A stretch of DNA of 61,780 nt, from NCBI GenBank assembly GCA_013538805.1, contig JABXGR010000006.1, positions 36,195 through 97,974 of the forward strand, read 5' to 3'. Positions within the stretch are counted from its first letter, which is position 1. Every line of letters begins with the position of its first letter. The notes below the pieces were generated by a model. That model searched no databases. It saw only the letters and a list, made by a program, of their open reading frames with translations, and was not told the origin of the DNA. This stretch comes from Candidatus Nitrosocaldus schleperae (lineage in GTDB: Archaea > Thermoproteota > Nitrososphaeria > Nitrososphaerales > Nitrosocaldaceae). The position numbers and the translations under genes were made by a program. Positions 2,007-61,780 of the stretch are shown one piece after another.

Positions 2007-3335
2007 ATGATGTCTAGCAAGAATGCATCACACTACTCCTCCTCCTACTCATCTCTTACTCCTATATCACCTACACACATAAATCTCAACCCATCAATCT
2101 GCATGCAGTGTAGAGGTAGCAAGTACCTCTGTGGTCTAGCATACTGCCCCATCCTTGTATCAAGTGTAAAGGCAATGCTTGAAAGGATAGATGTGGATAA
2201 GAGTATTGATGGCTATACACCACCATCCATATTCGTTGGTAGGCTAGGGTATCCAAAGGTCAGCATAGGACCAATGGTGCCAGTTCCAGTTCAAGTTGTA
2301 GAGCATGATATGGGCAGTTTAGATATAAGCATATATGATTGCCCAGAGCAGTGGCATAACATTGCTCTTGATTATGTGCTTAAGTTCAGGTTAGCAATGG
2401 TTAGGGGCAAGGTTAAGGTTCATGTTGATGATGCATCACTAACAAGCAGTGGAATATCATCCATACTGCAAGAACTTGCAATGGCTAAGGTGCCAGTAGA
2501 TGCTGAGATGCTCCTCAAGAATAAACCTTCAGGGATAAACCTGAGCGAGTATCTACCTCCATCTGGACCATCTGCAGAGATGGAGAGGCTAAAGGTAGGG
2601 AGCATAAGGGTTGATGAGAGGATAGAGAAGGCATACTATGATTATGATCTTAGTGCAAGTGAAGCAATGCTCCAACTATACAGCAATGGTGTTAGCATCT
2701 CAAGCATAGTAAGGGCATTGAGTGCTGGATGCCTAGGCTATAAGCGTAGAAGGAGGTTTGTACCAACAAGGTGGAGCATAACTGCTGTTGATGATACAAT
2801 CTCTAAAGCACTGATAGAGCAGATCAAGCATGAGCCTAGCATAGATGAGTACATGGTATACTCTAGAGATGTTAGCATGAACAGGTTCATATGCATACTA
2901 CTGCCAGGCAAATGGGAGTTTGAGTGGATTGAGGCATGGTTCCCAAGCACCACATGGAATGTGTATGGGAGTAGGTATGAGATGATAGGGGATCATGAAT
3001 ACTATAGAGGGAGGAAGGGTTATGCTATGGTTGGAGGATGCTACTACTCTGCCAGGCTTGCAGTTGCTGAGCATCTAGCATCTATTAGGAGGCAGGCAAG
3101 GGTTCTCATGCTAAGAGAGATATACCCAGGGTTCAACATACCAGTTGGTGTATGGTTCGTTAGAGAGCATGTTAGGGCAATGCTTAAAGGCAAGGCAGCA
3201 AGGTTCACAAGGATGGATGATGCTATTAAATATGCTATGAGCATGCTTAAGATACCATTAGAGGAATGGTATAGGGAGAGCAGTATGCTGAGAGGGGCTC
3301 AGACTCAGATTAGGCTATCTTATTATATGCAATAA
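2007..3335 (+). CDS. nreA: Archaeal DNA repair protein Nre
   Basis: 442 aa. Recognised by the N-terminal Cys cluster CMQCRGSKYLCGLAYCP (about residues 32-48), then PPSIFVGRLGYPKVSIGPM (about 72-90), and the conserved C-terminal half with YYSARLAVAEHL and GVWFVREHVR. These are the two domains formerly called DUF650/DUF651. Haloarchaeal NreA acts in repair of DNA damage together with PCNA. The last residues, QIRLSYYM, look like a slightly degenerate PCNA-interacting motif. The first ~25 residues are Ser/Thr/Tyr-rich and poorly conserved in character, so the true start may lie a little downstream. Dpo4, another PCNA client, is encoded 1.3 kb away on the opposite strand. Confidence 0.9.
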   Translation: MMSSKNASHYSSSYSSLTPISPTHINLNPSICMQCRGSKYLCGLAYCPILVSSVKAMLERIDVDKSIDGYTPPSIFVGRLGYPKVSIGPMVPVPVQVVEHDMGSLDISIYDCPEQWHNIALDYVLKFRLAMVRGKVKVHVDDASLTSSGISSILQELAMAKVPVDAEMLLKNKPSGINLSEYLPPSGPSAEMERLKVGSIRVDERIEKAYYDYDLSASEAMLQLYSNGVSISSIVRALSAGCLGYKRRRRFVPTRWSITAVDDTISKALIEQIKHEPSIDEYMVYSRDVSMNRFICILLPGKWEFEWIEAWFPSTTWNVYGSRYEMIGDHEYYRGRKGYAMVGGCYYSARLAVAEHLASIRRQARVLMLREIYPGFNIPVGVWFVREHVRAMLKGKAARFTRMDDAIKYAMSMLKIPLEEWYRESSMLRGAQTQIRLSYYMQ

Positions 3336-3403
3336 TATTATGATTATAGCATCCACTAATCTAAACAGATTTAATAGAGAGTAGAGTATCGTAATCCAAA
3401 GGC

Positions 3404-4366
3404 ATGAAGGAGAGTCTAGAAGGAAGGGGGTTGGTGAAGGGCTATCTACCAATACTAATCCTCCTTGCCTCACCTGTACTCTACACCCTTGTAATAGCAC
3501 CAGATACATTCCAGATGGGCTGGAATGAGGGCAGGGGAGGTTTCCTATTTGCTCTAGCCTTCATAGTTGCAGAGATAGCAGGGATAAGATATGCCATAGC
3601 AAGGAATAGGCTATACCTAGCATCCATGCTGGCAGTTGCATGCATTGTATACTTCACGCTAGTAGAGAATGGGTATAGGCAGATCATAATGGACTCTGCA
3701 TCAACCTATGGTGCAAGGCTTAAGGATAGCTGGACATGGATGTGGGATTATATAGTATTGGGATCATTCATAGCCTCATCACTAAGCATATTATATGGTA
3801 GGAGATGGCTAAGGATAGCCCCTGCAAGCCCAATCTACCTGCTTGGTAGTGCAATAATACTATCTCTTGATGCCTTCTTCCCATACAATACTCTAGGTCC
3901 ATTGCAGTTCATAGTACCTTATCTACTCCAGTTCGATGCATGGATAATAAATACTCTAGATATAGGGAGTGCTACAGCAAGAGGCAACATGCTCTTCCTG
4001 AATGGAGAGAAGGGCTCCATGGCACTTCAAGTATTCTGGCCATCTGCAGGTGTGCATAGCATCATCATATACTCCCTTGTGATGCTTGCATTCCTGCTCA
4101 AGATGAATATACAGGGTAGAAGGAAGGGCATATACTTCGCAATAGGTGTTGCTGGCACAGTATTTGTTAACACAATGAGGATACTTGCCTTATCGATATA
4201 CGTGCTTACTGTTAGTGCTGATGTTAATGCATTTGAATCATTCCATTCTATAGCAGGGGAGATAATGTTCCTACCATGGCTTGCTGGCTACCTAGTGCTT
4301 ATAATGTATGTTGAGAGCAGAAGGGTTAAGAGAATGGATAAGAAGGATGCTAGCGAGGGGGAGTAG
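3404..4366 (+). CDS. Archaeosortase/exosortase family protein, Ser-type
   Basis: 320 aa, about eight hydrophobic segments. The three exosortase/archaeosortase signature regions are visible in order. WPSAGVHS (about 222-229) sits where most family members have (A)C(S/T)GxxS, so the nucleophile position is Ser instead of Cys. NTMRIL (about 268-273) carries the conserved Arg. FHSIAGEI (about 292-299) carries the conserved His. The family is a membrane transpeptidase thought to process proteins with a short motif-TM-basic C-terminal tail. Candidate substrates in this window are the PEFP protein at 19823 and the VPESILG proteins at 24354 and 52808. A second copy begins at 60812. Gene is separated by 68 bp from nreA and need not be co-transcribed. 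Confidence 0.85.
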   Translation: MKESLEGRGLVKGYLPILILLASPVLYTLVIAPDTFQMGWNEGRGGFLFALAFIVAEIAGIRYAIARNRLYLASMLAVACIVYFTLVENGYRQIIMDSASTYGARLKDSWTWMWDYIVLGSFIASSLSILYGRRWLRIAPASPIYLLGSAIILSLDAFFPYNTLGPLQFIVPYLLQFDAWIINTLDIGSATARGNMLFLNGEKGSMALQVFWPSAGVHSIIIYSLVMLAFLLKMNIQGRRKGIYFAIGVAGTVFVNTMRILALSIYVLTVSADVNAFESFHSIAGEIMFLPWLAGYLVLIMYVESRRVKRMDKKDASEGE

Positions 4367-8422: not shown

Positions 8423-9058
8423 ATGCCAAGCATCTGGCAGCATGATGAGAGGATGATAGAGTATGTGCATAGCATACTACCAAAGAGCCCAGGTATACTT
8501 GCAAGCATAGAGATAGATGCTAAGCAAAGGGGCATACCAATCGTTGGCCCATTGATAGGTAGACTGCTCTTCCTCCTCACACTTACAACAAGGGCTAAGA
8601 GGGTGCTTGAGATAGGCACTGCTGTAGGCTACTCTACCATATGGCTTGGGCTTGCAGCAAAGAAGGTTAAGGGTAGAGTAACAAGCATAGAGATAGATCC
8701 TGCAAGGGCAGATGAGGCAAGGGCAAACATACATACTGCTAACCTAGATGATACTGTAGAGGTTATAACTGGGGATGCTCTAGATGTGATACCAGGGCTT
8801 AAGGGAAGGTTCAACCTTATCTTCATAGATGATAGCAAGGATAACTACCCTAGGTACTTTGAGCTATGCTATCCAAGGTTGAGCAAGAATGGACTGCTCA
8901 TAGCAGATAATGCGTTATGGCATGGAGAGGTATTGAAGGATAGTATAGAAGGAAAGGCAGTAGCAAGGTTCAACTCTATGTTGATCAGTAGCATGGATGC
9001 TGTAGTGCTCCCTGTACGGGATGGGCTAGCTATAGGTATCAAGGGGTATAGGCAATAA
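8423..9058 (+). CDS. SAM-dependent O-methyltransferase (COMT-like, family 3)
   Basis: 211 aa from ATG 8423; a TTG five codons upstream (8408) is possible but less likely. SAM motif I is RVLEIGTAVGYSTIW (about 58-72), the acidic motif II is SIEIDPARADEARAN (about 84-98), and FIDDSKDNYPRYFE (about 130-143) gives the metal-binding Asp residues of the cation-dependent catechol/caffeoyl-CoA type family. ADNALWHGEV (about 162-171) is the usual DNxLxxG motif. Natural substrate not predictable. Confidence 0.88.
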   Translation: MPSIWQHDERMIEYVHSILPKSPGILASIEIDAKQRGIPIVGPLIGRLLFLLTLTTRAKRVLEIGTAVGYSTIWLGLAAKKVKGRVTSIEIDPARADEARANIHTANLDDTVEVITGDALDVIPGLKGRFNLIFIDDSKDNYPRYFELCYPRLSKNGLLIADNALWHGEVLKDSIEGKAVARFNSMLISSMDAVVLPVRDGLAIGIKGYRQ

Positions 9059-9144
9059 TAATGATTATGAGTTGATATGTGTATAATGATATCATACTGC
9101 TGCTGTTGCTACTGCTACTGCTATTACTACTGCTAGTTAGTAGC

Positions 9145-9393
9145 CTAGCCAAGAAGGTTACGCACTATGTCCCTCCTCGCCAGTTCGAACCTTGCAGAGG
9201 TCTCTATCATCCTCATAGCCTTATCAAACGCATCCTCAGTGGGAAGGTCTGCAACCTGCATGTATATATTCTCAGCCTCCCGCCTCCAGTACTGATAGAA
9301 GTCCTTTGGATCCTTCCCTGCATTGGAGATTATGGAGTCGAACAACTCCTTCATCTTGAAGAGATGCTCGCTCCTTAACCCCTTGCCCATCAT
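9145..9393 (-). CDS. Small helical protein, unknown
   Basis: 82 aa (or 81 from the second Met). Almost entirely helical and amphipathic, with FKMKELFDSIISNAGK, YQYWRREAENIYMQV and FDKAMRMIETSARFELARR. No family recognised. A TATA-like TTTATAAATAGG on the minus strand (about 9408-9420) lies about 25 bp upstream of the start region, which supports a real gene. The ORF on the opposite strand here is low-complexity Leu-rich and is a shadow. Confidence 0.6.
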   Translation of the reverse strand: MMGKGLRSEHLFKMKELFDSIISNAGKDPKDFYQYWRREAENIYMQVADLPTEDAFDKAMRMIETSARFELARRDIVRNLLG

Positions 9394-9430
9394 AACTATA
9401 TGTATAAAAACCTATTTATAAAACAAATGC

Positions 9431-10135
9431 CTAGATGGATGATGCTATGAAGCCTGCTCCTATGTACACTAGCATGGCATAGAGTGCTATGTATAACATT
9501 ATGTAAGGTCTTTTGTTATGAAGCCTCTCGATACCCTTCCTTGCCATGTATGCTGTACAACCAAGCCATGCATAATCCATCCATATATGTGCTAGGAACA
9601 TGATGAGTACTCCCTGTATAGATGCCATGTACCATGCATCTGCTATCATCTTTGCCCCAACCGTTAGCCACCATACAATGAAGAATGGGTTCAATGCTGA
9701 GAATACTATGCCAGCAAGTAACGAACCATGAAGTGCTGATACTCTTCCATCTATTCTATCCCAATATATGCTACTACCATAACTGCCATTACTACTACTA
9801 TTACTGCTACTACCATCTTTACCCTTGCCATTAGATCTCCATCTACTGTACATTGTGTATAACTGCATTGTAGCAAATGCTATCAATGCTATACCTCCAA
9901 CCAAGCCTATAAGCCATCTGAACTGATTTATATAATCCATGCTGAGTATGCCAATCGCTATAGCAAGTATAAGAGGTAACTCAACAGCAGCATGCCCACT
10001 TGCACATAGTATGCCAGATACATGACCATACCTCTTCGCATAATGTAGGTTGATGAGGAATAACGGTCCTGGAGATAGAACGCCAGAGGATGATACAGCA
10101 ACCACCATGAGCAAGAACGTATAGTCCATAACCAC
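9431..10135 (-). CDS. LysE/RhtB family amino-acid exporter
   Basis: 234 aa, six hydrophobic segments. The N-terminus has the LysE-family SPGPLFLINLHYAKRYGHVSG block (about 21-41), followed by the helix-rich G/A pattern. FSALNPFFIVWWLTVGA (about 145-161) is the second family hallmark (NP-FF-W). These proteins export amino acids or small metabolites. An unusual cytoplasmic-loop insert GKDGSSSNSSSNGSYGSS (about 105-122) is encoded by an AGT/AAT-type triplet repeat. A start at the second Met (MDYTF) is also possible. Confidence 0.85.
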   Translation of the reverse strand: MVMDYTFLLMVVAVSSSGVLSPGPLFLINLHYAKRYGHVSGILCASGHAAVELPLILAIAIGILSMDYINQFRWLIGLVGGIALIAFATMQLYTMYSRWRSNGKGKDGSSSNSSSNGSYGSSIYWDRIDGRVSALHGSLLAGIVFSALNPFFIVWWLTVGAKMIADAWYMASIQGVLIMFLAHIWMDYAWLGCTAYMARKGIERLHNKRPYIMLYIALYAMLVYIGAGFIASSI

Positions 10136-10207
10136 TTCCCATCAACCAACCAATCATACCATCATCTGTAGTAAGAGTTATCTTGTATAAAAAGGAAGAG
10201 TACTAGC

Positions 10208-11131
10208 ATGGTTAAGGTAATCCTTGATATGGATCCAGGGGTTGATGATGCTATAGCATTGATACTAGCCCTTAATAGTCCAGAGATTGAGATATTAGCG
10301 TTAAGCACTGTATCTGGGAATGTTAGTGCAATGATGGGAGCAGTAAATGCACTCAAGATATGCAATGCTTTAGGCAAGGGCATAAGGGTGATCAAGGGTT
10401 TGAGCAGGAAGGGTTACAGGAGGTCAAGGCATGCTGTAGAGGTTCATGGTAGGGATGGGCTTGGTGATGCAGGTATAGCAGAAGGTGTAGTAAGGACAGG
10501 TTACAGATACAGATACAGAGATCCTATAAGGGAGATAGCAAGCATCATCACATCATATAAGAGTAAGGAGGTAACACTACTCTGCACAGCACCACTAACC
10601 AACATAGCATCACTACTTGAAGAGTATCCAGATGTGAAGAGGCATATAGATAAGGTATTCATCATGGGTGGAGCATACAACCTTGGTGCTGCTGAGGGTA
10701 ATGTAACAAGGTATGCAGAGTTCAACTTCTACACAGATGCTAGAGCAGCAGATAAGGTCATGGGCTCTGATCTTAGCATAGTTGCATCTGGCTTGGAGTT
10801 GACATCACGTAGAGACTGTAGCATAGACCATTCAATGCTTGAGAGGATCAAGACCATAGGGAGCAAGCCTGCTCTACTTGCAGCAAGGATACTCAGCAAC
10901 CCTGTAGCAAGGTACTCATACTTCAACATACATGATGTATTTGCACTTGCATCACTATTAAAGCCTGAGATGTTTGCTGTTAGGCGTGCAAGGGTTAGGG
11001 TAGAGAGTGCTGGGAAGATGAGAGGTATGTGCATAACTGAGTATAGGACTGATGGGAATGTAAGCATATGCTATGATGTTGATGCACAGAAGTTCATAGA
11101 TTTCCTGCTAGATGGCTTCTTAGATGAGTAA
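10208..11131 (+). CDS. Nucleoside hydrolase (inosine-uridine preferring type)
   Basis: 307 aa. The Ca2+-binding signature DMDPGVDDAIAL is at about 7-18; the second part of the site is GAYNLGAAEGNVTRYAEFNF (about 157-176). The fold and length are those of the IUNH/RihB family, which splits ribonucleosides to base and ribose. The neighbour on the opposite strand, 93 bp away and convergent, is a PfkB sugar kinase of ribokinase type that could phosphorylate the released ribose. Base preference cannot be told from sequence alone. Confidence 0.9.
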   Translation: MVKVILDMDPGVDDAIALILALNSPEIEILALSTVSGNVSAMMGAVNALKICNALGKGIRVIKGLSRKGYRRSRHAVEVHGRDGLGDAGIAEGVVRTGYRYRYRDPIREIASIITSYKSKEVTLLCTAPLTNIASLLEEYPDVKRHIDKVFIMGGAYNLGAAEGNVTRYAEFNFYTDARAADKVMGSDLSIVASGLELTSRRDCSIDHSMLERIKTIGSKPALLAARILSNPVARYSYFNIHDVFALASLLKPEMFAVRRARVRVESAGKMRGMCITEYRTDGNVSICYDVDAQKFIDFLLDGFLDE

Positions 11132-12331: not shown

Positions 12332-13981
12332 ATGCAGAGTGAGGAGGATAGAGGTAAGAGGTTTAGCATTAGAACCCAGCATAATAATAATTGCAATAGT
12401 AGTAGTAGCAATGCTTTACGTATAGCAGGGACTGAGTTGGGATATGTATTCAGAGACTTCCTTAACATGGAGCCAACATCCATGCTAATAAGAGGGCTCC
12501 CTGGTACAGGGAAGACCACTCTAGCACTTGAGTTAATGCAACTTATGCATGATAAGTACAACTGCTTCTACATCTCAACTAGGGTATCACTTGCAAGGCT
12601 ACAGCGCTACTTCCCATGGATAATAGGCTACTTGAAGGATGAGTCAGTACTCTCATACGATAAGATAGAGAAGGACTCTGTTATAGACCTTAGACTTGGG
12701 AGTGCTGCAGGAACAGTAGAGTTGGTTATAGATACGCTCATCAACAAGAAGAGAGCATTTGTAGTTCTAGATAGTTGGGATGCACTAGCAAAGGAGATCA
12801 AGCATGATGAGAGGATGAAGATGGAGAAGACCATGATAACAGTTGCAGATACAAACGATGGCTTCATCCTATTTGTAAGTGAGGAGCCAGAGATGAACAC
12901 ACTATCGTACCTGGTTGATGGGATAGTAACATTGAACGTTAGAGATTATGATGGTGTAAGCATAAGATCCATGTATATAGATAAGATGAGAGGAGTTGCA
13001 CTCTACAACAACAACTATGCATATACACTACTAGACTCTAGGTTCACATTAGTTCCTATACAGTATAACTGTACATACTGTGAATATAGAGATGATGAAG
13101 ATGATAACGGTAATGATGATGGTAGTAGTAGTGGTAGTAGTTATAGGTTATTCCATGTATTTGATGCTAGGGAGGGCTTCGTATCAACAGGGAGCAGGGA
13201 TATGGATGTTATGCTCCATGGAGGGCTTAGGTATGGTAGTACTTTACTCCTAGAGGTTGATCCTGGGTTTGATATGATCTTCTTAAATGCTATTCTAACA
13301 TGCATGATTGCTAACTCATTGAATAGCAATGGCAAGGTTATGCTGGATGCGCTTGATGCTTCATTGAGTAGCATGATGGGTAGCATACTGCCATTCTGCA
13401 CAGACAAGGTTAAGAACCTAACAATATTCACATCAAGCAAGATAGATGTTCAAGCGGTGTATGAGCAATGGTTAAATAACAAGAGGAGGAGGAAGAGTAA
13501 GAGCATAAACTCTCTACCATCTATAGTGAATGTTAGTGACTCTAACTATACTAGCATTATGCTGGAGAGGTATAATGAGTTGAAGAGGTTAGATGGTATG
13601 AGCATTGAGCACAATGATAGTAATAGTAAGGAGAGTGCTACTGCTACTGCTACTACTACTGCTACTGCTGCTGATAGCGTTGATAATACTCGTAGATCAA
13701 TACTCCTAATACTCAATCGTATGCATGCTAGTAGCAGTAGGATGCATGAGAGTATGCTCTTAACCAATGCAAAGGATAATGGCGATGTTACAGTTATAGT
13801 TGAAAGGGTAGGATCAAGCAACATACCATATGTTAAGAGCATATCAGATGTGCATCTAAGGTTATGGAGTAAAAGTGGTGTGCATCTAATGCATGCTTTA
13901 AAGCCTAACCTTGGTACATATGCAATACTTTTGGATAGGGAGAGAGGATATCCTTCATACTTGCTGTTAAGGATGGTGTAG
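12332..13981 (+). CDS. KaiC/GvpD-like RecA-superfamily ATPase, two domains
   Basis: 549 aa from ATG 12332 (a TTG at 12317 is possible). First RecA-like domain: Walker A GLPGTGKTT (about 55-63) and Walker B AFVVLDSWDA (about 146-155). A second, KaiC-like half starts near STGSRDMDVMLHGGLRYGS (about 287-305), where the Walker A Lys/Thr are missing, so that domain probably cannot hydrolyse ATP. Low-complexity inserts interrupt it: an acidic Ser-rich linker (about 250-275) and an Ala/Thr run (about 432-447). Archaeal homologs are annotated as GvpD-like, but no gas vesicle genes are here. Followed by a hypothetical gene after only 4 bp, so these two form an operon. Confidence 0.75.
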   Translation: MQSEEDRGKRFSIRTQHNNNCNSSSSNALRIAGTELGYVFRDFLNMEPTSMLIRGLPGTGKTTLALELMQLMHDKYNCFYISTRVSLARLQRYFPWIIGYLKDESVLSYDKIEKDSVIDLRLGSAAGTVELVIDTLINKKRAFVVLDSWDALAKEIKHDERMKMEKTMITVADTNDGFILFVSEEPEMNTLSYLVDGIVTLNVRDYDGVSIRSMYIDKMRGVALYNNNYAYTLLDSRFTLVPIQYNCTYCEYRDDEDDNGNDDGSSSGSSYRLFHVFDAREGFVSTGSRDMDVMLHGGLRYGSTLLLEVDPGFDMIFLNAILTCMIANSLNSNGKVMLDALDASLSSMMGSILPFCTDKVKNLTIFTSSKIDVQAVYEQWLNNKRRRKSKSINSLPSIVNVSDSNYTSIMLERYNELKRLDGMSIEHNDSNSKESATATATTTATAADSVDNTRRSILLILNRMHASSSRMHESMLLTNAKDNGDVTVIVERVGSSNIPYVKSISDVHLRLWSKSGVHLMHALKPNLGTYAILLDRERGYPSYLLLRMV

Positions 13982-19822: not shown

Positions 19823-20989
19823 ATGATGAAGAGAAGAGTATCATTGCATCTAACAACAATGGCAGCGGTACTGGTAGCAGCAGCATTATCCATCTCAAGC
19901 CTTGTGGATGTTCATGCCCAGTCAACATGGTACCCTGGTAAGGGTGCAGAACTTGGTACATACTTCGTATACACTATAAGGGATTTGGAGTATGAAAGTG
20001 CTAGAGAGTTGGAGGTTGCGATATGGCTAGGCTCAAGGGATGATCAAGGTAATTGGATAGCAGATGTGAGCGTTAATGATGCTGGCATTGTAAGCAATGG
20101 CAAGATGGTCCTATCGAGTATAAATATGCAGCCACAGAGTGCAGATCCATCAGTTAGCAAGTATAGAGCAATAATACAGAGGACTCTTACATGGCTTGGT
20201 GACTTTGCAAACAGTAGTGATCCAAAGTCACTAGCACCATCAGCCTGGGGAAGGCTTGCAATAACTGGAGGAGTGCCAGTTGGTGTTGGTGCCCCTGTTG
20301 CTCTACAGGTTACCAACGAGCAGATAACTGCAGCAAATACAACATGGAACACTACTATAGTAGGCTTTAGGTATGCTAAGGATAGCAAGATATGGGTTGC
20401 AGAGAACTTCCCATTGCCTATAAAGGCTGAGGTATATGCATTCAGGACTGAAGAGCCTATACCAGTGCAATACTCATTCGAGTTGAAGAGGTTTGGGAGG
20501 AGTGATAAGCCAATAGAGTTAACACCTGGGGTTGTTGAGATACCAAAGCCACCATTAGAGAAGTTTGGTAGCACTGGCAATGTATACGTGCTGCTCTACT
20601 GGGGTCCTCAGACCATAATGCCTGGGCAGGATGTGCAGATAGCAGCCCAACTATACGATGCAGGGAAGAGACCATTGAGGGAGACAGAGCGATACACTAT
20701 AGAGATATTCGATGGGGATAAGAGCATATTAAAGCAGGAGTTGAGCAACAACCTCCAACCTGTAACTGTTAGGTTTGAGAGTGAAGGTGTGAAGAAGGTT
20801 GTTGTTAGTTATATAGTGCCATTCAGAACTGGAGAGGGGGAGACTAGACTGATAGACAGGACTGAGTTCAACATAGTTGTTGTGCCAGAGTTCCCTGTAG
20901 CCATAATGGTTATATTAGCATCAATAATGGCAGTTACGATAGTAGTGGCAAGAGGTAGACTAGGCTCTATAATGCATAGACAGTTCTGA
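19823..20989 (+). CDS. Secreted protein with PEFP C-terminal sorting tail
   Basis: 388 aa. Signal peptide at 1-33 (RR then TTMAAVLVAAALSISSL, likely cleaved after VHAQ). The extracellular part is beta-rich, with an Ig-like region at about 250-345 (VYVLLYWGPQTIMPGQDVQI, AAQLYDAGKRPL) that often mediates surface-layer contacts. The end, VVVPEFPVAIMVILASIMAV followed by a TM segment and RGR/HRQ, is the archaeal PEF/PEFG-type sorting signal processed by archaeosortases. The first half (30-240) has no recognised domain. TATA-like TTTATAAAC at about 19796 supports the start. Confidence 0.8.
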   Translation: MMKRRVSLHLTTMAAVLVAAALSISSLVDVHAQSTWYPGKGAELGTYFVYTIRDLEYESARELEVAIWLGSRDDQGNWIADVSVNDAGIVSNGKMVLSSINMQPQSADPSVSKYRAIIQRTLTWLGDFANSSDPKSLAPSAWGRLAITGGVPVGVGAPVALQVTNEQITAANTTWNTTIVGFRYAKDSKIWVAENFPLPIKAEVYAFRTEEPIPVQYSFELKRFGRSDKPIELTPGVVEIPKPPLEKFGSTGNVYVLLYWGPQTIMPGQDVQIAAQLYDAGKRPLRETERYTIEIFDGDKSILKQELSNNLQPVTVRFESEGVKKVVVSYIVPFRTGEGETRLIDRTEFNIVVVPEFPVAIMVILASIMAVTIVVARGRLGSIMHRQF

Positions 20990-21863: not shown

Positions 21864-22766
21864 TTATGGCTTGTACATGTATACCTTGTATAGTTCACCA
21901 TTATCCTCATCAGTATAACCCCACTTACTTATATCAAGGCTTAATTGCTTGAACCTATCCTGCATGTTTGGATGCAATACATTGTATACGTTATGGCTTA
22001 TAACTATTGAGTTACTCTCTGCCAACGCATGTATCTTTGCAGCCATGCTTATCCCATACCCAACTATATCTACATCCATACTCTTATCACTCCCATACTG
22101 GATCACAGAGTGCTCCCCAACATCCATGCTAACCTTCATTGCAAGTTCAGGGTAATCATACTGGAGGAGTACAGGGTTTATCCCCTGCCTTAGCACCTCT
22201 ATCATTGCTATTGCACAGTTCACAGCATCATCTGCAGCAAGAAGTAGGTTATGCATTGCAGGGAAGTATGCTATAACAGCATCCCCAACATACTTGAGCA
22301 CTAGACCATTGAAGTTCAATGCTATGAACGACATCTCTTGTGTAAATGCTTGCATTATTACTGCTAACCTCTCTACAGGGAGCATCCTACTTAGCCTTGT
22401 AGAACCTACCATATCAGCGTATAGCACAACTAGTTTTACCTTTGAGTTGAGATGCCGCTTGAGGAACTCCTCTGATGATCTTGTCAATGCTTGGAAGTGC
22501 ATGCCTCTCTTCAATGCCTTCCACATCCTTGCCTGTACTTCTGCTATGTATGTCTGGGTATCAACAACCCTAGTTGATGAGAGCTCCCCAATTATAATAT
22601 CTATTATATCATCCTGCACTATCTTTCCTTCTCCTTTTACTTCTCTTCCCACTACTATTTCTTTACCATTACCGTTGTTGCTGTTGCTCATCATGCTATC
22701 ATCATAACCCCCTCTCTCCATCATCATTAGAATAGTAAATCTTTTATATAATGTATTGTAGTACAT
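21864..22766 (-). CDS. Class III nucleotide cyclase-like protein
   Basis: 300 aa. The first ~75 residues are a low-complexity and helical N-terminus (the real start may be an inner Met, e.g. MMERGG). The cyclase homology domain spans about 112-285. Metal-binding Asp residues are present in VVLYADMVGSTRLSR (D118) and LKYVGDAVIAYF (D162). The region that normally reads VNxAxR reads ISMAAKI, so the transition-state Asn and Arg are Ser and Lys. A paralog at 53991 has the same changes. Cyclase activity is therefore uncertain; a different NTP reaction or ligand sensing is possible. Confidence 0.8.
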   Translation of the reverse strand: MYYNTLYKRFTILMMMERGGYDDSMMSNSNNGNGKEIVVGREVKGEGKIVQDDIIDIIIGELSSTRVVDTQTYIAEVQARMWKALKRGMHFQALTRSSEEFLKRHLNSKVKLVVLYADMVGSTRLSRMLPVERLAVIMQAFTQEMSFIALNFNGLVLKYVGDAVIAYFPAMHNLLLAADDAVNCAIAMIEVLRQGINPVLLQYDYPELAMKVSMDVGEHSVIQYGSDKSMDVDIVGYGISMAAKIHALAESNSIVISHNVYNVLHPNMQDRFKQLSLDISKWGYTDEDNGELYKVYMYKP

Positions 22767-24353: not shown

Positions 24354-25211
24354 CTATCTGTATCTTAGAACCAGGAGAGCAATCGATGAGATGAGAAGTA
24401 GCACAGTACCAAGTATAGACTCTGGCACAACATGAAATGATACCCAGAATGTCTGCCAGAACTCTCCAGCATCCAATACAACACCCCCACCTGGATGATA
24501 TGTACCATTGGTAAAGTCGCAGTAGATAGTGTATGAGCCCATGATGTTGGTATCTGCTGGAGGATACCCTACAAAGTCATCTGGGAACCTTACAACTATA
24601 TGGTTATCAGCAACACCATTACCATCCACATCCCCACTTATGAACTCTCCACTCTTAAAGTAAGTCCTACCATCTGGGGTCTTCACAATTATTATACCAT
24701 TCACAGTAGTAGTGTATGTAGGCTCACTGAAGCATACTATATCTATGCTGCTAGCAGGGGGTATGCTCTCAGGCATGATCAACCCTTGCCTAAACATTAC
24801 GTTGCTATCAGCATATATTGTCTGCCAGAACTCTGCAGTTATGCTGTTGTATAAACCTTCCTCATCTCTATCATACCCACTCCACATCTTGCAGAGTACG
24901 GTAAAGTTCGCTCTCTGATTAGTATTGAAGTCATCTGGGAACCTTACAGTAGCACTATCATCCATCACCCCATTTGAGTTGAAGTCTCCAACATTGAAGA
25001 TTAGAGGCTTAGAATATGGTTTATCAGCAATTATAGTTATATCTCCATTAACTCCTGCAGGATGTGCTGGCTCGCTTAGGCATGTCACATCGTAAGAGTT
25101 GCCAACCTGTGTTATAACTATCCCTTGCTCAAATACCTTCTGTGCATATGCAGAACCTATAGATGCTAATAGTACAGTATATACACTCACTATATATATT
25201 AGAGCTTTCAT
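24354..25211 (-). CDS. Secreted Ca-loop protein with VPESILG C-terminal sorting tail
   Basis: 285 aa. Signal peptide 1-23 (SVYTVLLASIGSAYAQ). Two tandem repeats of about 115 residues, each starting F(E/R)QGxxI, carrying a Ca-binding type loop (GDFNSNGVMDD near 73; GDVDGNGVADN near 194), then VRFPDDF, and ending EFWQT. The C-terminus, FHVVPESILG followed by a hydrophobic stretch and RYR, is a tripartite sorting signal. The protein at 52808 ends almost the same way (FNVVPESILG), so both are likely handled by the same archaeosortase. The function of the extracellular repeats is unknown. Confidence 0.8.
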   Translation of the reverse strand: MKALIYIVSVYTVLLASIGSAYAQKVFEQGIVITQVGNSYDVTCLSEPAHPAGVNGDITIIADKPYSKPLIFNVGDFNSNGVMDDSATVRFPDDFNTNQRANFTVLCKMWSGYDRDEEGLYNSITAEFWQTIYADSNVMFRQGLIMPESIPPASSIDIVCFSEPTYTTTVNGIIIVKTPDGRTYFKSGEFISGDVDGNGVADNHIVVRFPDDFVGYPPADTNIMGSYTIYCDFTNGTYHPGGGVVLDAGEFWQTFWVSFHVVPESILGTVLLLISSIALLVLRYR

Positions 25212-52807: not shown

Positions 52808-53323
52808 ATGCAGAAGATTGCATACCTAATGATGACGATGGCAGTAGTAGTAGGAGTAATAGCATCTCAAAGTATAGGAAGGGCTTATGCAACAGCAACA
52901 ATAGTACCTATGCCTCCTGGAGTTACTGCAGATGCAGCAGTAGCACTCAACACTCCATATAGCATAGGAAGTCAAGGCGATCTATACATATGTGTATCAG
53001 TAACAAGAACAATAACAGATATCAAGTTGATAGATCCAACTAGTACGTACCACAACTATGTTGGAGGACTGCCATTGCCTATAACCATACCTGCAAACCA
53101 GTGCCTCTATCTAAACGCTAACGACTTTGCTGGTCTTGCTGGTGGATTCAATATGGCAGGAGACTGGGCATTGGTAGCAGATATGCAAGGTGGCTTCACA
53201 TTCCTATACGAGTTTGTGGTAACCTTCAACGTAGTGCCAGAGAGTATACTAGGTGTAGCAGCAATAGTAGCCCCTTCACTAGCAGCATTAACAGGATATA
53301 GGATATTGAAGCAGAGAAAGTGA
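52808..53323 (+). CDS. Secreted protein with VPESILG C-terminal sorting tail
   Basis: 171 aa. Signal peptide 1-29 (LMMTMAVVVGVIASQSIGRAYA). The mature part is beta-rich (GDLYICVSVTRTITDIKLID; LPITIPANQCLYLNANDF), like a small jelly-roll. The C-terminus FEFVVTF/FNVVPESILG is followed by a hydrophobic stretch and YRILKQRK, a tripartite archaeosortase signal. The same VVPESILG block ends the Ca-loop protein at 24354. Preceded by 260 bp of AT-rich sequence without genes. Confidence 0.8.
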   Translation: MQKIAYLMMTMAVVVGVIASQSIGRAYATATIVPMPPGVTADAAVALNTPYSIGSQGDLYICVSVTRTITDIKLIDPTSTYHNYVGGLPLPITIPANQCLYLNANDFAGLAGGFNMAGDWALVADMQGGFTFLYEFVVTFNVVPESILGVAAIVAPSLAALTGYRILKQRK

Positions 53324-53841: not shown

Positions 53842-53990
53842 GATATGATTTACTAGCAAGAAGGTTATAACATTTTGGTTAATTCTCATAGATGATAAGA
53901 GTATGGTTATAAATTATTAACCAAGGATCATTATAATATTTATTAACCATACTCATCTTATAGACTGTATTGACAAGTCCAGATACCCCT

Positions 53991-54701
53991 ATGCCAGTTA
54001 GGAGCGAGGCTATAGCAAACATAAAGGCTAGAGTGATGCGCACTGTAAGGCTTGGACCTCAGATAGAGGCACCGTTCAAGTTATCCGAGCGTTTCCTTAG
54101 GAGACATATAAATGAGAGGCTAAGGATGGCTGTACTCATAGCAGATATAGCAGAGTCAACGAGGCTAAGCCTTGAGCTCCCAAGCAAGATCCTTGCAACA
54201 ATAATACAGGTATTCTCGCAGGAGATGGCCCTACTGGTTATAGGTCATGGAGGGTATGTACTCAAGTATGTAGGGGATGCTGTACTCTCATTCTTCCCTG
54301 CTGAGTATAATCCAACAGCAGCATGCAATACAGCAGTGAAGTGTGCAGTAAGCATGATGAGCATAGTTAATGATGCTTTAAACCCAGCACTAACAGAGAT
54401 GGGTTATCCAAGCATATATGCTAAGATAGGGATAGACTTTGGGCAGAACCTCATCATGATATATGGGAAGAGTAACGAGGCCTCCTATGTTGATATCATA
54501 GGTCCTGCTGTAAGCATGGCATCAAAGATAACATCTATAGCAGGAGCAAGGCAGTTGATAGTTGGGCAGGATGCTTATGCTATGCTTGAGCAGGATATGC
54601 AGAGCAGGTTTGTTGAGTTGAATATTAACACGTATAGATGGGGTTTCATAGACCCTGTAACCAGAGACCCATACAAGTTATACCTTTACTCTCTCTACTG
54701 A
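53991..54701 (+). CDS. Class III nucleotide cyclase-like protein, paralog of 21864-22766
   Basis: 236 aa from ATG 53991; a TTG seven codons upstream (53970) is also possible. One cyclase homology domain: RMAVLIADIAESTRLSLELP (first metal Asp), GGYVLKYVGDAVLSFFPAE (second Asp), KIGIDFGQNLIMIYG, and DIIGPAVSMASKI, where the usual Asn and Arg of VNxAxR are Ser and Lys as in the paralog. It has the same RRHINERLRMA lead-in (paralog: KRHLNSKVKLV). Lacks the long low-complexity N-terminus of the paralog. Overlaps the convergent membrane gene by 24 bp. Confidence 0.8.
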   Translation: MPVRSEAIANIKARVMRTVRLGPQIEAPFKLSERFLRRHINERLRMAVLIADIAESTRLSLELPSKILATIIQVFSQEMALLVIGHGGYVLKYVGDAVLSFFPAEYNPTAACNTAVKCAVSMMSIVNDALNPALTEMGYPSIYAKIGIDFGQNLIMIYGKSNEASYVDIIGPAVSMASKITSIAGARQLIVGQDAYAMLEQDMQSRFVELNINTYRWGFIDPVTRDPYKLYLYSLY

Positions 54702-59375: not shown

Positions 59376-60167
59376 CTATACCATACCTAACCTAGCCTTT
59401 ATCTTCGCTATATCCTCTTCTATCCTAGCAAGCCTCTCATCTAACATACTCTTCATATCACTTCTGAACATCCGTATCTCGTTAATTATACCTGTCTTTG
59501 CATCATCAATCTTATGAATTATCTCATCCAACTTCCCTAATGTCTGATCCTGTTTAGCAAGCATCTGATCCTGTTTAGCAAGCATCTGATCCTGTTTATT
59601 TAACATTTGATCCTGCTTAGCAAGCATCTGATCCTGTTTATTTAACATTTGATCCTGCTTAGCAAGCATCTGATCCTGCTTATTTAACATTTGATCCTGC
59701 TTAGCAAGCATCTGATCCTGCTTATTTAACATTTGATCCTGTTTAGCAAGCATCTGATCCTGCTTAGCAAGCATCTGATCCTGCTTATTTAACATTTGAT
59801 CCTGTTTAGCAAGCATCTGATCCTGCTTAGCAAGCATAACATTAAAGTACAACGCACCAGTGCTAAACCCTTCAGTCATCTCCTCCTCTAGAGAGCCAGT
59901 TATTATCTTGAATGTCTTAAACTCTCCAGTAGGTTCTTCGTATCTAACATCCATATCCTCAACGTATATAGGCTCCCTCCTTATCCTTATATCTTCAAGG
60001 AATCTGCTTATAGGTTCATCATCCCCTTCAGCAACTATCTCTACCCTGCCATCATCAAGGTTCTTAACATAGCCCTTGACCTTATGCTTCATTGCTATAT
60101 GCTTAACATTGTATCTATATCCAACACCCTGCACCATCCCCTCTGCAAATACCTTGACCCTCTTCAT
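59376..60167 (-). CDS. Acylphosphatase domain fused to a long heptad-repeat coiled coil
   Basis: 263 aa. Residues 1-90 are an acylphosphatase: GMVQGVGYRYNVKHIAMKHK (with catalytic Arg) and GYVKNLDDGRVEIVAEGDDE (with the second catalytic residue Asn). After a linker come 14 uninterrupted heptads of MLAKQDQ or MLNKQDQ (about 111-208), then two degenerate heptads and a helix ending KIKARLGMV. Each heptad has M and L in a/d-like positions, so a long parallel coiled coil is expected and would hold several acylphosphatase heads. A TATA-like TTTATATAGG lies just upstream. Confidence 0.88.
   Translation of the reverse strand: MKRVKVFAEGMVQGVGYRYNVKHIAMKHKVKGYVKNLDDGRVEIVAEGDDEPISRFLEDIRIRREPIYVEDMDVRYEEPTGEFKTFKIITGSLEEEMTEGFSTGALYFNVMLAKQDQMLAKQDQMLNKQDQMLAKQDQMLAKQDQMLNKQDQMLAKQDQMLNKQDQMLAKQDQMLNKQDQMLAKQDQMLNKQDQMLAKQDQMLAKQDQTLGKLDEIIHKIDDAKTGIINEIRMFRSDMKSMLDERLARIEEDIAKIKARLGMV
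59544..59837 (-). repeat. Tandem 21-bp repeats coding the KQDQ heptads
   Basis: Fourteen head-to-tail 21-bp units. Two main versions alternate irregularly, differing at the third and second heptad residues (AGCAAG versus TTTAA for Ala/Asn) and at a silent T/C. Copy number is likely to vary between strains. Confidence 0.95.
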
Positions 60168-60328
60168 CCTATATAAAGAGGGTTATCTTATTAATAAACA
60201 AACCTACATAGAATAAACCTTGCTAGTGTAGAGAGACTCCACATCTTCTATAACACCTATTATATAACATTCATTATGGTACTTGAACAACATAATCTTA
60301 ATATCCTTGATTGAGGGTAGAGAGCATA

Positions 60329-60736
60329 ATGTTAATGTCCATGTATAGCAATGAGAGAAGCCTCTTAAGCATGTTATCAATGCTCAAGTGCAAGGCTATG
60401 AGGAGTAGGGTATGGTATGAAGCATTGAGTGCTCATGAAAGGATGCTAGTAGGGTTAGCAACCAGATATATAAAGCAAGTAAGGAATAAGCAGTTAGCAA
60501 TAGTGCTTGCTAGGCTGGTAGTAAAGTTGAGTATAGCAGTAAACCAGATGATAAGGGTTGAGCAGCATGGCTTTGCTAGGGCATATGCATGGTTGAAGGG
60601 AGCAATAAAGAGTGGTATGGGCATGTTCATGAACAATGGTGATGGAGCATTAGTACTAACAGTCAGTAAGAGCATAGTAGAATGGTTTGCTATGCTCGAG
60701 TCTAACCTTATGCATATTTGGAGATGGCATTATTAA
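60329..60736 (+). CDS. Uncharacterised helical basic protein
   Basis: 135 aa from ATG 60329 (TTG 60311 adds six residues). All-helical and Lys/Arg-rich (YIKQVRNKQLAIVLARLVVK; QHGFARAYAWLKGAIKSGMG), high Met content. No family recognised. Weakly resembles small helical regulators; no confident claim. Confidence 0.6.
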   Translation: MLMSMYSNERSLLSMLSMLKCKAMRSRVWYEALSAHERMLVGLATRYIKQVRNKQLAIVLARLVVKLSIAVNQMIRVEQHGFARAYAWLKGAIKSGMGMFMNNGDGALVLTVSKSIVEWFAMLESNLMHIWRWHY

Positions 60737-60811: not shown

Positions 60812-61780
60812 ATGATAACAAATGCCCTAATCAATAGAGAGCATACAAGCATGCTTGTAAAGGCTGTAGTAATAGCCATAGCAGTTGCCATAATCTACAT
60901 GCAGGATCTAGCGATAGTATTCAGCAATGCCCTAGTCTTCAGTTCAGCAAACATAACAAACTACATCCTTGTAATACCATTCCTTATAGCATATGTAGTG
61001 TATAGGAAGAGGAGGATGCTCATCGCTAATGCTTTAGAGCATAGGGCAAAGGCATTCAGGTTTGATGATGCTATAGGCTTAACCCTTGTATTTGTAGCAT
61101 TGATGCTCTACATCTACGGCTCCTTAACCCTTTATGCTATGGAGTACCATATCTACTCTATACCAGTATTTGTTGCTGGTCTAACTGCTCTACTCTTCAA
61201 CCTTAGAGTGTTAAGGCATTCTATCTTTGCTATTGTTATACTTGCTTATCTACAGCCTCCACCCGCTGAACTGCTCTCAGAGATAGCAGGGGATCTCTCA
61301 TGGATATCAGCAACCCTTGCTGAGGCTATGCTCAAAGGTTATGGACTTAACGTTGCTCTCCAGGTTGATTATGGTGCCCCAGCACTAGTTGTAAGCAAGG
61401 GTGATGCACAGACACCATTCTTCGTTGGTGAACCATCATCTGGCTTATTCTCAACCATAGGGCTATCACTCTTCGCTCTGATAGCAGCATACATTGCTAG
61501 GGGAGCGTTGTGGAAGAGAGCAGTTATGTATGTTATAGGCTTCCCAATATTCTTCATGCTCAATGCATTAAGGATATCGATAATACTATTACTCTGGTAC
61601 CATTATGGTGAGCAGGTATCTGAGACATTCCATGCAATGTCTGGTTCTATAATGGCTATACCTGGTACTCTAGCAATACTCATCATAGGAGAGAGGCTGC
61701 TTAAAGTAAGGATAAGCATAGCAGGCTCAAGGAGCAATGCTAAGGGATGTGAGCAGTGCTCAATTAGCAAAAGCCTAAAC
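60812..61780 (+). CDS. Second Ser-type archaeosortase family protein (runs off window)
   Basis: Open from ATG 60812 to the window end (323 codons, no stop). Many hydrophobic segments. Signature regions: EPSSGLFSTIG (about 208-218) with Ser at the usual Cys position, FFMLNALRISIILLL (about 247-261) with the conserved Arg, and ETFHAMSGSIMAIPG (about 271-285) with the conserved His. Same triad pattern as the gene at 3404, though otherwise divergent. The C-terminal tail holds KGCEQCS, a CxxC element. A longer loop before the Ser motif (about 150-207) might contact substrate. Confidence 0.82.
   Translation, partial: MITNALINREHTSMLVKAVVIAIAVAIIYMQDLAIVFSNALVFSSANITNYILVIPFLIAYVVYRKRRMLIANALEHRAKAFRFDDAIGLTLVFVALMLYIYGSLTLYAMEYHIYSIPVFVAGLTALLFNLRVLRHSIFAIVILAYLQPPPAELLSEIAGDLSWISATLAEAMLKGYGLNVALQVDYGAPALVVSKGDAQTPFFVGEPSSGLFSTIGLSLFALIAAYIARGALWKRAVMYVIGFPIFFMLNALRISIILLLWYHYGEQVSETFHAMSGSIMAIPGTLAILIIGERLLKVRISIAGSRSNAKGCEQCSISKSLN

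Follow-up and report, generated by a model that had tools for sequence, protein, structure and literature searches.

A VPExxxG carboxy-terminal tail as a candidate sorting signal in Nitrosocaldus, with an exosortase-family enzyme as its probable partner

In the ammonia-oxidising archaeon Candidatus Nitrosocaldus schleperae, a number of secreted proteins end in a common tail, in which the motif F-x-V-[VIL]-P-E-x-x-x-G is followed by a transmembrane (TM) helix and basic residues. From sequence comparison, we hold with good confidence that this VPExxxG tail is a C-terminal sorting signal which is processed by an exosortase-family enzyme, here called the second exosortase, encoded at positions 60812-61780 of the analysed stretch of 61,780 nucleotides (referred to as the window). 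The tail is present almost only in genomes that also contain the second exosortase, and therefore the two probably form a surface-fixing pair. In the literature outside most subscription journals, no earlier mention of the VPExxxG tail or of the second exosortase in these archaea was found.

Two proteins of the window, P0001 and P0002, had drawn attention to the tail in the original prediction. P0001 (24354-25211, minus strand) is a secreted protein of 285 aa consisting of two copies of one domain and the tail, and P0002 (52808-53323, plus strand) is a secreted protein of 171 aa with the same type of tail. Both open reading frames were confirmed to be real, both N-termini read as signal peptides, and both C-termini consist of F-x-V-V-P-E-S-I-L-G, a short membrane helix and basic residues. 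In P0001, the tail comprises FHVVPESILG, the TM segment and basic residues at residues 259-285 (window 24357-24437, minus strand; FHVVPESILGTVLLLISSIALLVLRYR), and was matched by the tail profile described below with an E-value of 1.3e-12; in P0002, it comprises FNVVPESILG, the TM segment and basic residues at residues 140-171 (window 53225-53320, plus strand; FNVVPESILGVAAIVAPSLAALTGYRILKQRK), with an E-value of 9.2e-18. The extracellular parts of the two proteins are unrelated, as had been claimed: BLASTP with the tail-less sequences gave no match, and comparison of the tail-less family profiles gave an HHalign probability of 0.5%. An internal M-P-E-S of P0001 (residues 146-149, window 24765-24776, minus strand) was also part of the original prediction; it indeed lies between the two repeats. 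Since it is located in the linker, is not followed by a membrane helix and is replaced by other residues in single-domain relatives, it was judged to be a coincidence and rejected as a second signal. The P0001 domain itself, which is also present in other tail proteins (L021, L124, L130 and L101), contains a D-x-[ND]-x-[ND]-G-x-x-D loop, for example GDFNSNGVMDDS, resembling a calcium-binding loop.

The number of VPExxxG tails in this genome is far above chance. Searching the 1.45-Mb genome with a loose DNA pattern for VPE[S/T/W]xxxG gave 9 sites, and the reversed pattern, used as a control, gave 0. A profile of the last residues, as proposed in the original prediction, was built from eight tails (last ~34 residues) and identified 15 tails in the genome, with E-values from 9e-18 to 9e-8. 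Across genomes, 46 strict tails were read, which gave the core F-x-V-[VIL]-P-E-x-x-x-G and placed the motif, the TM helix and the basic residues at the extreme C-terminus. After PE, 25 of the 46 have S and the remainder T, W, F, V, L, A, G or Y; serine at this position is common, not required. The invariance of F and G in the strict set is partly circular, because both residues defined that set. For six tails of this genome that were found by the profile and missed by the DNA pattern (L028-L033, with VPELALG, VPEFMIG, VPEGILG, VPEFLLG, VPEYMLG and VPEVFIG), F and G were kept in 6/6.

A confinement of the tail to two paralogous proteins, considered in the original prediction, was not found, since about 15 carriers of at least eight unrelated types are present in this genome. 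The 13 full-length carriers form eight groups without detectable ectodomain similarity, a count which leaves out L034 and L035, both being PEF-type. It might be argued that the tail is the end of one widespread domain which was spread by gene duplication and is no signal at all, and some carriers are in fact interrelated (L021/L026/L028, L027/L030/L033 and L029/L031), with identical tail DNA being present at two contig ends. The eight groups without detectable ectodomain similarity and the HHalign value for P0001 and P0002 render this explanation extremely improbable. The two contigs mentioned (G000 contigs C5 and C6, with L024 and L025) both stop exactly at the identical VPESMIG tail DNA, and therefore the parent genes are missing; probably, the assembly broke at these ends because a tail gene had recently been duplicated.

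The tail was predicted to differ from the PEF/PEFG and PGF classes, and this was borne out by the model searches. The PEFG-CTERM model TIGR04296 matches other proteins only: no VPExxxG tail was among its matches in the genome at an E-value of 0.001, and 0/23 tails were matched at an E-value of 1, by which PEFG membership was ruled out. The PGF models matched 1/23 tails at best, with E-values of 0.04-0.1. In a scan of the 23 tails with NCBIfam and Pfam, nothing better than an E-value of 0.005 was obtained, no PEP-CTERM model matched, and no model covers the VPExxxG tail. PEF-type tails are also present in the same genome, one of them in the window, where a secreted protein (19823-20989, plus strand) ends in the contrasting VVPEFPVA (TIGR04296 E-value 6e-4; 19.4 bits, below the 25-bit cut-off). 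The VPExxxG and PEFG systems are alike in that they are present in the same organisms, have a tripartite layout beginning with V-V-P-E, and have presumed enzymes that belong to one superfamily and carry Ser where the active-site Cys is expected. In contrast to VPExxxG tails, PEF tails have no F at position -4 and contain F followed by G or P after PE. Single marginal tail matches in G123, G125, G131, G157, G247, G330 and G234 were read as PEF-type and not counted as VPExxxG. The PGF-CTERM/archaeosortase A system of Haloferax shares the tripartite C-terminal signal, but differs in the motif and in the enzyme subfamily. In Haloferax, ArtA cleaves the PGF-CTERM tail, and the protein receives a lipid (PMC9263693).

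The window encodes two exosortase-family enzymes. The first is a thaumarchaeosortase (3404-4366, plus strand; TIGR04297 413 bits, cut-off 250), which we take to be the partner of the PEFG tails. The second exosortase (60812-61780, plus strand) is represented by its first 323 aa and is cut by the contig end. It was matched by the superfamily models PF09721 (94 bits, cut-off 25.7) and TIGR04178 (51.5 bits, cut-off 23), and it reaches none of the named-subfamily cut-offs, the best being XrtD (TIGR04152) with 84.8 of 400 bits; a full-length relative scored 83.8 bits against the same cut-off of 400. The second exosortase is not among the TIGR04297 matches (cut-off 250 bits), and it differs from the thaumarchaeosortase also in sequence (~20% identity) and in its distribution. 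A third exosortase match, on contig C9, is interrupted by a stop and offers no plausible open frame, and was rejected.

By score, the closest known proteins are the bacterial exosortases (EpsH/Xrt, PF09721), notably XrtD (VPLPA-CTERM) and XrtW. The second exosortase is distinguished from XrtD and XrtW by scores far below the subfamily cut-offs, its archaeal origin, Ser in place of Cys, a zinc ribbon and a winged-helix-like C-terminal region. In intact relatives, which are 669-749 aa long, the exosortase core is combined with a CxxC...CxxC ribbon, one more TM helix, an ectodomain and the winged-helix-like C-terminal region. The alignments with XrtW, and in one homologue with XrtD, continue beyond the core as far as the extra ectodomain, suggesting an EpsI-like part there; Pfam gave no match for an EpsI identity of the ectodomain. 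An AlphaFold model with a mean pLDDT of 55.6 was not relied on. A PDB fold search gave no hit at an E-value of 0.001 or better, with winged-helix and LpqN/DcrB-like folds as the only suggestions, and no PDB relative was found by sequence. The original prediction of an archaeosortase signal is kept for the new sorting tail and modified for the enzyme, in that the likely partner is closer to the bacterial exosortases than to any named archaeosortase.

Cys together with downstream Arg and His are the usual catalytic residues of exosortases. In the second exosortase, Ser209/Ser210, Arg254 and His274 are located at the expected active-site places, and in 10/10 homologues read, Ser-Ser-Gly is present at the place of the expected Cys, followed by N-x-x-R and F-H or Y-H. 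The thaumarchaeosortase contains Pro-Ser-Ala-Gly at the same place. For ArtA, the active-site Cys is critical (PMC9263693), and the Ser in the second exosortase was counted against the pairing.

The evidence which connects the second exosortase with the tail is the distribution of both among genomes, the same kind of phylogenetic profiling by which PEP-CTERM was discovered (PMC1569441). Six relatives were found to contain 8-19 tails each. In a sample of 250 genomes of the class, the second exosortase was strong in 6, all of which are among the 7 genomes with 8-19 tails, and a weak match of 27% identity was obtained in G186. In a sample of 400 genomes of the order, strict tails are present in 10 and the main-clade enzyme in 8, and 8/8 enzyme genomes have tails. 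The chance of this co-occurrence was calculated to be ~3e-15 by genome and 1.4e-6 by genus, figures which ignore shared ancestry. Enzyme and tails are found together in four genera of three families: besides the genera g1 and g2 of the window's family, both are present in two genomes of genus g20, from another family, and in one genome of genus g10, from a third family, with the sampled congeners of g20 and g10 having neither. Perhaps the pair appeared three times independently, and a basis of so many lineages counts against the pairing. In the g10 genome (G356), a single 13.8-kb contig contains both the tail gene and the enzyme gene, with ~5 kb between them, and therefore the pairing in this genome is independent of genome binning; the presence of only one tail in G356 counts against the pairing. 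Order-wide weak enzyme matches of 24-28 bits were rejected; the four for which the motif was read carry PSAG, the signature of the thaumarchaeosortase. In G124, a genome of another genus, a fragment (L096, contig C12:6696-6977) is 82% identical to the Nitrosocaldus exosortase, while the genome's own copy is 47% identical; the fragment is probably an assembly contamination.

The same distribution bears on two further explanations. The thaumarchaeosortase at 3404-4366 might process both the PEF and the VPExxxG tails, in which case the second exosortase would have other targets and the co-occurrence would reflect lineage history. The common V-V-P-E and the single architecture of both tail types agree with this, as does the thaumarchaeosortase gene, which was present in all tail genomes checked for it, among them G068, in which the second exosortase was not detected. 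However, the thaumarchaeosortase is present in 177 of the 250 class genomes, 170 of which have no VPExxxG tails in number, so that it is hardly predictive (p ~0.09), whereas the second exosortase predicts the tails almost perfectly, including the isolated members of g20 and g10. This explanation is considered unlikely, and by sequence and distribution the tail is most likely read by the second exosortase and not by the thaumarchaeosortase. A TM helix with basic residues could also serve alone as an uncut membrane anchor, with the motif being kept for contact with another membrane partner. Plain anchors would not conserve P-E-x-x-x-G across unrelated proteins, nor would they be expected to track an exosortase, and such a role is regarded as very improbable. 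The original view of the tail as a sorting signal is supported by its occurrence on many unrelated ectodomains and by its tracking of an exosortase-family enzyme.

Exceptions to the co-occurrence were found in both directions. In 2/10 tail genomes (G068 and G250, both draft assemblies with at least 15 tails), neither the enzyme nor its 141-aa neighbour gene described below was detected; the completeness is 98% for G068 and 67% for G250. In G068, two contigs break off with the stop codon of a P0002-like gene, and another one within the homologue of the following gene, making an assembly gap at the enzyme locus plausible; the gene order past this point differs from that of the window, and a real loss of the enzyme is possible. 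In three Nitrosocaldus assemblies, contigs break inside or within ~300 bases of the second exosortase gene (window 61780, L085 and L086), and therefore the locus is hard to assemble. Conversely, three genomes of family f12 contain a divergent enzyme (25-35% identity) and no strict tails, which counts against the pairing. Near the divergent enzyme in the f12 genome G273 (contig C80, L193), genes at 2858-3388, 8978-10231 and 12564-13376 end in TPQFPAG, TPFYPIG and TPEFPLG, respectively. These TPxFPxG-like tails are possibly a sister signal class, which hints that enzyme and motif changed together in f12. This is only a lead, and it is weakened by a PEFPIG tail in the f12 genome G234, where the enzyme was not found.

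A gene for a 141-aa protein, which in the window lies at 60311-60736 (plus strand), is conserved in relatives, either immediately upstream of the second exosortase gene or elsewhere in its locus. G204 and G356, which belong to different families, have a common set of genes preceding the enzyme, coding for a YdjM-like membrane protein, the 141-aa protein, a small protein, a family-2 glycosyltransferase and a partner protein with a C-P-L-C motif. In G124, the C-P-L-C partner is present along with three further proteins common with G204, one of them being DUF1616 (Pfam). Downstream of the enzyme gene, Nitrosocaldus has glycosyltransferases, sugar-modifying enzymes, and sulfotransferase or APS-kinase genes. 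Settings of glycan genes are usual for bacterial exosortases (PMC1569441), and this likeness to the PEP-CTERM/exosortase systems speaks for the pairing and suggests a glycan or glycolipid acceptor. Elsewhere in the window, an acylphosphatase-like protein (59376-60167) contains a long run of MLAKQDQ/MLNKQDQ heptad repeats, the length of which varies between relatives, and two paralogues of ~39% identity (21864-22766 and 53970-54701) read as adenylate/guanylate cyclase domains.

For the maturation of the VPExxxG proteins, a route can be drawn up by analogy with the exosortase and archaeosortase literature, from which cleavage, a Ser-Arg-His active site, transfer and the acceptor are taken. The N-terminal signal peptide would export the substrate, and the tail would hold it in the membrane for a time. 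The membrane-embedded second exosortase would then cut at or near the P-E motif and join the newly formed C-terminus to an acceptor (membrane or glycan), which is perhaps the product of the glycan and sulfate genes which follow the enzyme in relatives. On a wider scale, and put forward tentatively as a reading with somewhat less than even prospects, the ammonia-oxidising archaea may possess a second sortase system beside the thaumarchaeosortase and PEFG. This system would consist of a multidomain exosortase, with Ser for the catalytic Cys, a zinc ribbon and a winged-helix-like end, and of its own VPExxxG signal, and would attach its own distinct group of surface proteins to an acceptor of the glycan or lipid type, the enzyme subclades having co-evolved with the tail motifs (VPExxxG, and TPxFPxG-like in f12).

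The analysis provides a VPExxxG profile and a candidate enzyme for a tail that is missed by current annotation libraries, and assigns 8-19 VPExxxG proteins to most genomes of thermophilic ammonia oxidisers. Two parallel surface-sorting systems in these archaea are suggested, and the second exosortase would offer a natural case for testing if serine can take the role of cysteine in exosortases.
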